64,000 nt of DNA from Phytoactinopolyspora halophila (GTDB taxonomy: Bacteria > Actinomycetota > Actinomycetes > Jiangellales > Jiangellaceae): positions 62,001 through 126,000 of the forward strand of contig NZ_QMIG01000014.1 of assembly GCF_003287285.1 (NCBI RefSeq), written 5' to 3'. A program made the position numbers and the translations under genes. Numbering within the stretch: position 1 is the first letter of the stretch; every line of letters begins with the position of its first letter. Below, in pieces: positions 34,930 to 47,377 of the stretch. Below the pieces are notes generated by a model. The model was not told the origin of the DNA. It did not search any database and saw only the letters and a list, made by a program, of their open reading frames with translations.

Positions 34930-36270
34930 CTAGGGCGTGTTCGTCGTCTCAGGGTCGCCCGGGGTCTCGGCCGAGCCGTTCGCTCGCTGCTCGCGGAGCC
35001 GATTCCGCAGTGTTTTCATCTCGTCGTTCAACGTGCTCACGGCGGAAAGGATCGCCCTCTCACAGCGCTGGTAGTTTCCGAGCATCTCGGAAAGAACTTG
35101 GATGTGCTCGCGGAGCGCGGCATTCTCGTGCTGGAGCTCGGCCGGTGACCGGGCGTCCTGAAACTCCGTCCCATGGTGCCCGCCCGCCCGGGCAACGGGC
35201 TGCGGCGAGTCGCCATTGCTCGCGTGGCCCTCGAGCTGGCTGGGTGGCTGCGTACGCTGCTGCGTTTGCTGCGCGGGTGGCGCCGGTGAGTGCCGTCCGT
35301 TCGGCGTGGCGCTACTCAGCGTCTTGGCGCTCGTCCCGTTGCGCTGGACCGACGGTAGCGGTACGACCTCTGCGTGATTCCCGTCCGGCCGCATCTCCTT
35401 CTCCTTGTTCACCAGTTCGAGGTCGACGTCTCGGGCTTCCTCCGGCACGGGGATCCGGGACGTGCGATCGCGCTGAGCCATACCCAGGAGGTAGCAAACC
35501 CGGCTCGCCGGGTTGTATCTGATCCGCTGGTTTCCCAGCGTCCGGTGCCGCTTCGGATCGTGCGAGTCGTCGAGACACACCTGCGGCGCATATGTCCGGA
35601 CGGTGCCCGGCGCGACAGCATGCGATCGCCCGACCATCTCGTTGAATTCCTTTTCGATCTCCTTATCGAGGAGGAACATCGTACCGAGCCCGGCGAGCTG
35701 CCACGAGACGCGGACTGACCATCGCTCCAGCTCATCGGGCTCTCGCCCGTGATGGCTAGCAACGAGGACCGGACCCCGGCGAGTGCCGTCGGCCAGATGA
35801 TCCATGAGGTCGGGCAGATACTCCTCACTGACCCACTGCGGCGTGGCTAGCACCGGTGTTTGCCCGTCCCGGCAGGACAACTCGCCCAGAATCTCCCGGA
35901 CGAATCCGGGCGCCGACATGAACGTGGAGGACATGGCCCCGTCCGGGGGCGGGGTGAGAGGCAGTTCGACCTCGGTCCACCAGAAGCCGGCCGCATGTGG
36001 CCGCTCCACGGCCGTGACGGTGGTACGCCACATGTCCCCGTCACCCTGCGCGTACGGATGTTCGCGACGCCAGCGGTAGGTGCGACAGTCGGTCTCCTCG
36101 TCGTCCACGACCGTGATCACGTCGTTCTTGCCCCTGACGTAGTGCCCCGGCTTCCCGGCAGGGGTGCCGATCCCCTTGTTACTCAACCAGCGGTCCAGAT
36201 GGGCAATGAGGGTGTCGACCACGGGCTGATCCGGGTCGACGTACAGGAAGGATCGATATCCAAGAGCCAT
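34930..36270 (-). CDS. Uncharacterised protein with C-terminal coiled coil
   Basis: A 446-residue soluble protein I cannot assign. From ATG 36270 (AAGGTGG 8 bases upstream) the N-terminal half (1-250) looks globular, with FWWTEVELPLTPPP and PVLVASHHGREPDELERWS. A notable block is HAVAPGTVRTYAPQV followed by DDSHDPKRHRTLGNQRI, Arg/His-rich and acidic as if for nucleic acid or nucleotide binding. Residues about 300-385 are a low-complexity Pro/Gln/Ser linker, and the last 60 residues (LQHENAALREHIQVLSEML onward) form a strong coiled coil. No membrane segment. It is monocistronic and divergent from the Cfr-like gene. Confidence 0.75.
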   Translation of the reverse strand: MALGYRSFLYVDPDQPVVDTLIAHLDRWLSNKGIGTPAGKPGHYVRGKNDVITVVDDEETDCRTYRWRREHPYAQGDGDMWRTTVTAVERPHAAGFWWTEVELPLTPPPDGAMSSTFMSAPGFVREILGELSCRDGQTPVLATPQWVSEEYLPDLMDHLADGTRRGPVLVASHHGREPDELERWSVRVSWQLAGLGTMFLLDKEIEKEFNEMVGRSHAVAPGTVRTYAPQVCLDDSHDPKRHRTLGNQRIRYNPASRVCYLLGMAQRDRTSRIPVPEEARDVDLELVNKEKEMRPDGNHAEVVPLPSVQRNGTSAKTLSSATPNGRHSPAPPAQQTQQRTQPPSQLEGHASNGDSPQPVARAGGHHGTEFQDARSPAELQHENAALREHIQVLSEMLGNYQRCERAILSAVSTLNDEMKTLRNRLREQRANGSAETPGDPETTNTP

Positions 36271-36516
36271 GACGCGAACCACCTTGTTTTGTGGATCAAT
36301 ACTTGAATTTCATAGTACGGTCGCCCCGTCTTCAACAAAAGGGGGGAGGGCCAGGTTTTTACCGCAGCACCCGCCCTCCACCCGTATCGAGGACTCCAGT
36401 GTCTCGTTAGATGAAACATCGACGATTCGAAGGCCAGGCCCAACCCGGGGACGAACCCGGATCCGCCACCGAGCTCGGGCAGGACGTGCCGCCATGCGCC
36501 GCCCGCTGACGCGACG

Positions 36517-36555
36517 AAAAAGTAGTTGTGCCACCAGCTATCGGATCGGCACAAT
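36517..36555 (+). promoter_or_regulatory. Promoter of the Cfr-like gene with upstream A-tract
   Basis: TTGTGC (36526-36531) and CACAAT (36550-36555) are 18 bases apart. AAAAA at 36517-36521 ends four bases before the -35 box. An AT-rich block about 3 bases upstream of the -35 is the hallmark of WhiB7-activated promoters in actinobacteria. Transcription would begin at about 36562, just at the leader ORF. Confidence 0.55.
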
Positions 36556-36564
36556 CATCACTAT

Positions 36565-36594
36565 GTGATCGGCATCCAGCTCCTCACCCTGTAG
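36565..36594 (+). CDS. Putative leader peptide of the Cfr-like gene
   Basis: GTG-ATC-GGC-ATC-CAG-CTC-CTC-ACC-CTG-TAG encodes MIGIQLLTL. It begins about three bases after the predicted transcription start, which fits leaderless translation. The frame is open back to TTG 36526 (22 residues), but that would need a start upstream of the promoter -10. Codons 4-7 are the 5' arm of the stem that hides the methyltransferase ribosome site, so a ribosome stalled here would free the site. Confidence 0.5.
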   Translation: MIGIQLLTL

Positions 36595-36652
36595 CGACAC
36601 CGCCACAGGGCTGTCTTCGCATCTTTCGATCGCATCGTTATTGGAGCTGGAT
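36574..36652 (+). promoter_or_regulatory. Translational attenuator of the Cfr-like gene
   Basis: ATCCAGCTCC (36574-36583) is exactly complementary to GGAGCTGGAT (36643-36652). The 3' arm contains the ribosome site GGAG and ends at the base before the ATG. Nested inside is CCCTGT (36587-36592) / ACAGGG (36605-36610), with extra CAG/CTG pairing that competes with the outer stem. This is the architecture of erm-type inducible leaders. Confidence 0.7.
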
Positions 36653-37699
36653 ATGCTCGTTCATCACCTGCCGAACCCGCCTCCGCGCTACCGCACCCTG
36701 GCCGACTTCGTCGAGCAGCAAGGCCACCCTCCCTATCGATTCCGCCAGATCATGCACGCCGTGACGCGTGGCGTCCTTGAGTTCGCCTCCATGTCCGAGC
36801 TGCCACGGCAGCTCCGGGACAACCTCACCGCCGAATTCGGATCGCACGTCACGACCCTGCAGCCGCTCACCAGCCAACGTTCCGCCCACGTCACCAAGAC
36901 TCTCCTGGCGTCACCGAAGGGCGGGCGCGTCGAATCGGTCCGTCTCGAATACGCAGCCGGGTGGACATCCCTGTGCCTGTCGTCCCAGGTGGGGTGCGGC
37001 CTCGGATGTACGTTCTGCGCGACCGGAACCATGGGGCTCGTCCGCAACCTGGGAGCCGACGAGATCATCGATCAGGTGTTGCTGGCCGACGGCCGTCCGG
37101 ACAGCGTGGCTTTCATGGGCATGGGCGAGCCCCTGGCCAATCCGCATACTCTGGCGGCCATCGATCTGCTCACCGATGCCTCGTTCCTCGGTTTCTCACC
37201 GCGCCGCGTGACGGTCTCGACGGTTGGCTTCCTGCCCGGAATGCAGCAACTCGTCGAGCGCCACCCCGGTGTCGTGCTCACCCTGTCCGTGCACTCTCCT
37301 TTCGACGAACAGCGCAGTGAGCTCATTCCCTTGCACCACCGGTATCCGTTGGCGGAATGCCTCGACGTTCTTGAGGAGCACGTCACGGTGACAAACCGCC
37401 GCACCTACCTCGCCTACCTGCTAATCGGCGGACTCAACGACTCCCGTGAGCACGCCGACGCGCTGGCCGCGCGGATCCTCGCGCGAGAACGTCCAGATCT
37501 GTTCATGGTCAGCCTCATCCCGTTCAACCAGGCGCCCGGGCTACCAGCCGAGTTCACGCCGCCGGAGCAACACACCGTCCGCGAGTTCGCCCAGCACCTG
37601 CACGCCCGTGGTGTCCGGGCGACGCGCCGTACCCAGTTCGGCACGGATATCGACGCCGCATGCGGCCAGCTCGCCGCCCGGCACGATGCGGAGATATGA
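36653..37699 (+). CDS. Cfr-like radical SAM 23S rRNA (adenine2503) methyltransferase
   Basis: A 348-residue RlmN/Cfr-family enzyme. The 4Fe-4S cysteines are C115, C119 and C122 in SSQVGCGLGCTFCATG, a further cysteine is C108 (SLCLSSQ), and the methyl-carrying cysteine is C337 in DIDAACGQL. Length and cysteine positions sit at a near-constant offset of the S. aureus Cfr (C105, C112, C116, C119, C338; 349 residues). Segments such as YAAGWTSLCLSSQ, SFLGFSPRRVTVST and LSVHSPFDEQRSELIP resemble Cfr more than housekeeping RlmN, which usually reads SLHAP. Cfr adds a C8 methyl to A2503 and gives multi-drug ribosome resistance. The ATG at 36653 has GGAG 6 bases upstream. Confidence 0.85.
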   Translation: MLVHHLPNPPPRYRTLADFVEQQGHPPYRFRQIMHAVTRGVLEFASMSELPRQLRDNLTAEFGSHVTTLQPLTSQRSAHVTKTLLASPKGGRVESVRLEYAAGWTSLCLSSQVGCGLGCTFCATGTMGLVRNLGADEIIDQVLLADGRPDSVAFMGMGEPLANPHTLAAIDLLTDASFLGFSPRRVTVSTVGFLPGMQQLVERHPGVVLTLSVHSPFDEQRSELIPLHHRYPLAECLDVLEEHVTVTNRRTYLAYLLIGGLNDSREHADALAARILARERPDLFMVSLIPFNQAPGLPAEFTPPEQHTVREFAQHLHARGVRATRRTQFGTDIDAACGQLAARHDAEI

Positions 37700-46321: not shown

Positions 46322-47377
46322 GTGAGCGAGATATTTTCCGCCTCCACGCCGGAGCCCGACATGCAGGGTTCGGGCGACTTCGACCTGACCCAGGCGCGAG
46401 CCGGGGACGATGCCGCGTTCTCCCGGCTCGTTCAGCCACTACGCCGGGAACTGCACGCCCATTGCTACCGCATGCTCGGCTCCGCGCACGATGCCGACGA
46501 CGCCCTGCAAGAAGCCCTGGTGCGGGCGTGGCGCGGACTCGCGCGTTTCGAGGGTCGGGGCTCAATGCGCTCGTGGCTGTACACCGTCGCCACCCGGACG
46601 TGTCTGGACGCGTCCGAGGCTCGTGACAGGCGGGCACTACCGATCGACGTCGGCCCGGCCAGCGAACGCGCCGTCGTCGGAGATACGCCACGAAACGACG
46701 TCGCCTGGCTCGGGCCCTACCCCGACGCCGCCCTCCCGAGCGCTCCGAGCAGCCCGGATGCACGCTACGAGCAACGCGAAGCCGTCGAACTCGCCTTCGT
46801 CGCCGCTCTCCAGCACCTGCCCGGCAATCAGCGCGCAGCGCTACTGCTCTTCGAGGTCCTCGACTTCTCCGCTGCCGAGATCGCCACCATCATGAACACC
46901 TCGACCGCCTCGGTCAACAGCGCACTCCAGCGTGCTCGGGCGACCATCGCCGACAAGGTCCCGTCGGCTACCCAGCAGCAGACACTGCACGAAACGGGCG
47001 ACGTCCGCCTACGAGAGATCGTCTCCAGATTCGCCAGCGCGCTCGAACACGGCAACGCCGCCGCTCTCGTCGCCCTGCTCACCGAAGATGTCACCTGGTC
47101 GATGCCACCACTACCGCACTGGTATCAGGGCATCGACGCGGTCACCGATTTCGCCATCAAGGTACCGCTGACCAGCTGCGGATCCTGGCGTCACCTGCCG
47201 ACCAGCGCGAACGGGCAGCCCGCCGTGGCCTGCTACCTCTGGAACGACGACGCCGGAGCACATCGGGCGTGGTCGATCAACGTCCTGGCCGTGCGCGGTG
47301 GGCACATCGCGGAGATCACCTCGTTCATCGGCACCGAGAACTTCACGCCCTTCGGGCTCCCGCCCAGCCTGCCCTGA
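46322..47377 (+). CDS. ECF RNA polymerase sigma factor with SnoaL-like C-terminal domain
   Basis: A 351-residue sigma-70 family protein. Region 2 covers about 35-105 (RLVQPLRRELHAHCYRMLGS, DADDALQEALVRAWRGLARF), region 4 covers about 155-210 (LPGNQRAALLLFEVLDFSAA, EIATIMNTSTASVNSALQRA), and a SnoaL/NTF2-like domain of about 120 residues follows. In SigG/ECF41-type factors this tail replaces a separate anti-sigma and controls activity. The GTG start at 46322 has no ribosome site. The gene's target promoter motif is not established here; the divergent hydrolase is a candidate. Confidence 0.9.
   Translation: MSEIFSASTPEPDMQGSGDFDLTQARAGDDAAFSRLVQPLRRELHAHCYRMLGSAHDADDALQEALVRAWRGLARFEGRGSMRSWLYTVATRTCLDASEARDRRALPIDVGPASERAVVGDTPRNDVAWLGPYPDAALPSAPSSPDARYEQREAVELAFVAALQHLPGNQRAALLLFEVLDFSAAEIATIMNTSTASVNSALQRARATIADKVPSATQQQTLHETGDVRLREIVSRFASALEHGNAAALVALLTEDVTWSMPPLPHWYQGIDAVTDFAIKVPLTSCGSWRHLPTSANGQPAVACYLWNDDAGAHRAWSINVLAVRGGHIAEITSFIGTENFTPFGLPPSLP

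Follow-up and report, generated by a model that had tools for sequence, protein, structure and literature searches.

How is the Cfr-like gene of Phytoactinopolyspora halophila controlled, and does the DNA in front of it hold a promoter for the antibiotic-stress activator WhiB7? The locus was analyzed within a stretch of 64,000 nucleotides (the window), in which the gene occupies positions 36653–37699 of the forward strand, starts with ATG at 36653, and encodes a 23S rRNA methyltransferase of 348 amino acids, assigned from NCBIfam models and a phylogenetic tree. The protein scores 385.8 and 382.8 bits with the NCBIfam Cfr models and 249 with the RlmN model, and both Cfr scores fall below the curated NCBI cut-offs (385.8 vs 468 and 382.8 vs 550). 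The tree places it on the Cfr(D) side, split from the RlmN genes of the family at 100/100, and a separate RlmN is encoded in the genome. Together, these results led us to call the gene Cfr-like. Its product is a probable ribosome-methylating enzyme and, by homology, a putative antibiotic resistance factor. The nearest plasmid relatives, cfr(D) genes, share 44% identity with it, which leaves the gene with no known close mobile source. A divergent neighbor of 450 amino acids (34930–36282, reverse strand) had no Pfam or NCBIfam match. In Streptomyces sp. SBT349, an ABC-F-like ATPase gene and, 3' of it, a Cfr-like gene are codirectional and may form a resistance operon.

The initial annotation described an A-tract, a −35 hexamer, and a −10 hexamer upstream of the gene, and a direct reading confirmed this description to the base. 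The A-tract AAAAA (36517–36521, forward strand), the proposed site for the WhiB7 AT-hook, spans −9 to −5 when numbered from the TTG of the −35 hexamer TTGTGC (36526–36531), with GTAG (36522–36525) between them. An 18-base spacer (36532–36549) then leads to the non-consensus −10 hexamer CACAAT (36550–36555). The motif AAAAANNNNTTG (AAAAA-N4-TTG) occurs once on both strands of the window against 0.06 expected, and the full layout WWWWNNNGTTG-N22-ANNNT occurs once in the window against 0.12 expected. A generic sigma-70 scan found no promoter at this site because both hexamers match the consensus poorly.

The 5.04-Mb genome encodes six WhiB proteins, and one of these is WhiB7, with a Whib domain (54.5 bits) and a C-terminal AT-hook (PRGRPRK). 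The promoter of this whiB7 reads AAAAAATAGG TTGCCC -17- TACTGT, and AAAAAT-N3-TTGCCC (A-tract-N3-TTGCCCCTTAC) is found in 20 of 20 readable whiB7 genes of the family, about 430–520 bases 5' of the gene. In Streptomyces coelicolor, the motif of the WhiB7 counterpart WblC is GAAAWY, 3 bp, TKGMNN, 16–19 bp, and TANNNT, with transcription starting 7–8 bp after the −10 (PMC7157823), and mycobacterial WhiB7 has its AT-hook site just upstream of the −35 (PMC3905903). A loose genome pattern was weakly enriched (28 sites vs 16 for a reversed control), and the stricter published consensus was therefore used, as RAAAWYNNNTNG followed by TANNNT at 17 or 18 bp with the reversed pattern as control. This search yielded 4 + 2 sites against 0 + 0 for the control, among them sites before other resistance and ribosome genes. 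The six sites lie before whiB7 itself, a leaderless GNAT gene, a HelR-like RNA polymerase motor, a leaderless APH(9)-like kinase, RsgA, and one further gene. At the GNAT gene, 17 genomes of the family share the promoter layout; with the six strict sites, this makes WhiB7-type promoters recognizable in this genome. An RsgA paralog is activated by WblC in Streptomyces (PMC7157823). hflX is also a WblC target in Streptomyces; a WhiB7-type site was not found at the hflX ortholog of this genome. The further gene, behind a WblC-consensus site at G000:C39:395872–395909 (reverse strand; L151), encodes a protein of 264 amino acids that lacks an NCBIfam match and by eye looks like a nucleotidyltransferase.

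The site before the Cfr-like gene was scored with a matrix built from ten WhiB7-type promoters, none of them a Cfr site. It reached 10.2 bits, compared with 13.3 for the lowest of the ten reference sites under leave-one-out scoring, and the background, 468 kb of strand, contained 29 sites with a score at least as high. It is the best WhiB7-type site within 36283–36640, its A-block is better than shuffled upstream bases (P = 0.006), and its block score ranks 12th in the window. Against the published consensus, the block of AAAAAG-TAG-TTG matches GAAAWY at four of six positions, the TTG fits TKGMNN but is followed by T instead of A or C, CACAAT fits two of the three fixed bases of TANNNT, and the 18-bp spacer is inside the 16–19-bp range. 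As a WhiB7 promoter, the site is thus mediocre when taken by itself, with the −10 as its weak part. The highest matrix score in the window (18.1 bits) belongs to a separate site at 46338–46290 (reverse strand), which reads GAAAATATC TCGCTC -19- CATTAT, lies just 5' of an alpha/beta-hydrolase-like ORF on that strand, and overlaps the start of a divergent sigma-factor-like gene (46322, forward strand).

Other readings of the site were also weighed. It may be a plain SigA promoter without WhiB7, in which the A-tract is UP-like or incidental and the leader attenuator alone accounts for the whole response to drugs; the modest score and poor −10 of the window copy favor this explanation, which is the main rival and one that we consider unlikely. 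An A-run and two hexamer-like words could also coincide by chance, as the gap is relatively rich in A and T (58% GC), and the background rate gives an estimate that about 1–2% of 200-bp stretches hold a site this good. Chance is nonetheless an extremely improbable explanation, given that position and layout are conserved in two relatives.

These relatives form, with the window gene, a Cfr-like group of three species. The nearest ortholog (69% identity) is in Phytoactinopolyspora limicola (L030), where the promoter reads ATAAAT-CCG-TTGCGC-17-CACAAT (14.5 bits), with a −10 identical to that of the window. In Actinopolymorpha rutila (L031), it reads GAAAAC-CGG-TTGAGG-18-CAGACT (13.0 bits). Each site is the top matrix match of its 7-kb locus and lies directly 5' of the gene, the A-block of each was equaled by none of 2,000 shuffles, and the window copy scores lowest among the three. 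The upstream alignment of the window with P. limicola has a score of 56, which none of 1,000 shuffles reached, and the block is conserved in the two relatives although its surroundings otherwise differ. Because related bacteria share the layout, it is probably real, and it is this conservation in P. limicola and A. rutila that carries the case for WhiB7.

The same sequences bear on a third alternative. TTGTGCC (36526–36532) and GGCACAA (36548–36554) are exact inverted repeats that overlie both hexamers, and a repeat of 7 bp with 15-bp spacing could serve as the operator of a dimeric repressor or activator, in which case its resemblance to a promoter would be a by-product. In P. limicola, however, the repeat has TTGCGCG as one arm and differs in spacing by one base, while the −35, the −10, and the A/T block survive; the inverted repeat is absent in A. 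rutila. An operator is thus very improbable, and this reading of the repeat was dropped.

Beyond this group, a block is present at Cfr-like loci of Promicromonospora (two) and Streptomyces (at least three of four), and it is missing from thirteen Cfr-like genes of a branch linked to rpmF (Microtetraspora, Microbacterium, Saccharopolyspora, and others), so the DNA in front of Cfr-like genes does not generally carry it. Order- and class-level searches added one more, distant Cfr-like gene with a weak block. In the rpmF-linked branch, the loci combine a TANNNT −10 with a leaderless leader ORF, and a Cfr-like gene can therefore manage without the block, which speaks for a plain SigA promoter. Against such a promoter, the A-tract in the window has the same register (−9 to −5 from TTG) as in the genome's own whiB7 promoter and the whiB7 promoters of the family, and the block is kept in P. 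limicola and A. rutila despite otherwise different surroundings. The WhiB7-type layout proposed in the initial annotation thus stands in part: it agrees with the whiB7 register of the A-tract, the conservation at two Cfr-like relatives, the presence of an AT-hook WhiB7 in the genome, and sites before other resistance and ribosome genes, whereas CACAAT and the fourth −35 base T depart from the published WblC consensus.

Downstream of the promoter, ATGTGA (36563–36568, forward strand) begins 7 nt after the −10 and is both the predicted transcription start and a predicted leaderless start-stop pair. RTGTGA is found 7 nt past the −10 in all three species (GTGTGA in P. limicola and ATGTGA in A. rutila). 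A candidate leader ORF read from the sequence, GTG to TAG (36565–36594, forward strand), would encode MIGIQLLTL; the corresponding GTG frame in P. limicola encodes MIVIQSR... and lacks the early stop of the window frame. Inside the leader ORF is an anti-Shine-Dalgarno arm, ATCCAGCTCC (36574–36583), identified from the fold and from compensatory changes relative to P. limicola. The Shine-Dalgarno arm from the same fold, GGAGCTGGAT (36643–36652), adjoins the ATG of the gene. The predicted ATCCAGCTCC/GGAGCTGGAT stem closes the start of the Cfr-like gene, and the leader fold has a z-score of −4.45 against shuffles. The stem is kept in P. limicola with two compensatory changes (C-G to T-A and T-A to C-G; two sequences only), where the leader folds at −49.5 kcal/mol and the start codon is paired too. 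No Rfam family matched here. As read from these features, the window leader has the anatomy of a translational attenuator, with a leader ORF over the anti-Shine-Dalgarno arm and a compensated stem. This agrees with the earlier suggestion of two layers of control, since a stem that sequesters the Shine-Dalgarno sequence is conserved downstream of the promoter.

We conclude that the site is probably a WhiB7 (WblC)-class promoter that, together with a translational attenuator, controls an intrinsic Cfr-like gene. We infer WhiB7 binding, the transcription start, drug stalling, and resistance, and the steps would be as follows. SigA holoenzyme would recognize the weak −35 and −10, and WhiB7 on SigA region 4 would touch the A-tract just upstream through its AT-hook. 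Ribosome-targeting drugs would raise WhiB7 and, with it, transcription of the Cfr-like gene from a start at about 36562–36565, at or within a few nucleotides of the leaderless leader frame. The leader RNA would pair with the Shine-Dalgarno sequence and start codon of the gene until a drug-held ribosome on the leader opens the stem and allows translation. In a variant that we regard as quite unlikely, the transcript begins at the A of AUGUGA and the leaderless start-stop pair, instead of the 9-codon frame, is the sensor; a ribosome with bound drug, halted at this 5' end, would open the stem, and WhiB7 would supply the transcript.

Other leader ORFs were seen upstream of Cfr-like genes. Many actinobacteria share a tiny ORF ending in EVDR(I/A/P/L/H)-stop, typically M(x)IEVDR- (L033, L034, L036–L041, L043, L044, L046, L048, L049, L051–L053, L064, and L070). 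These ORFs sit about 360–610 bases 5' of the gene, mostly 6–7 nt past a TANNNT box (leaderless), and from their sequences they look like a conserved leader peptide, possibly drug-sensing. The distant gene from the order- and class-level searches (L108) has a leader ORF of MSTPIADRA-stop. In 12 loci (L033, L034, L036, L037, L039–L042, L044, L048, L064, and L070), an ORF for a paralog of ribosomal protein L32 (rpmF-like; TIGR01031, 76 bits in one example) lies directly 5' of the Cfr-like gene, and a GGTTGT..ACAACC hairpin upstream is conserved in several rpmF-linked loci.

In Erm translational attenuators of the ermC type, a short leader ORF with an anti-Shine-Dalgarno arm precedes an rRNA methyltransferase gene. 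The Cfr-like gene shares this arrangement but differs in that its leader peptide is unrelated and probably leaderless and the stem is single and large. Our literature searches found no paper on leader peptides of actinobacterial Cfr-like genes and none joining a Cfr-type gene with WhiB7. If the proposed control is correct, a Cfr-type rRNA methyltransferase would be part of the WhiB7 network through which a soil actinobacterium mounts intrinsic resistance in response to drugs. This would be in keeping with Cfr-type genes providing environmental bacteria with intrinsic resistance that can be induced.

WhiB7-type promoters, attenuators, and both combined (are5sc; PMC12421871) are already known. 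The site resembles the WblC/WhiB7 promoters of S. coelicolor (PMC7157823) and mycobacterial whiB7 (PMC3905903) in its A/T block 3–4 bp before a TTG −35, its 18-bp spacer, its predicted start 7–8 bp past the −10, and its position before a gene that probably modifies the ribosome. Unlike WblC promoters, it has CACAAT instead of TANNNT, T as the fourth −35 base, and a block that ends in G rather than C or T. The precedent for the two control layers proposed here is are5sc of S. coelicolor, a WblC-regulon gene with a tiny leader ORF that also subjects it to ribosome-mediated attenuation (PMC12421871), and the Cfr-like gene would be the second type of resistance gene under WhiB7-type transcription and ribosome-mediated attenuation. 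The two differ in that are5sc encodes an ABC-F protein behind a terminator/anti-terminator leader, whereas here a Cfr-like methyltransferase follows a predicted stem over the Shine-Dalgarno sequence.
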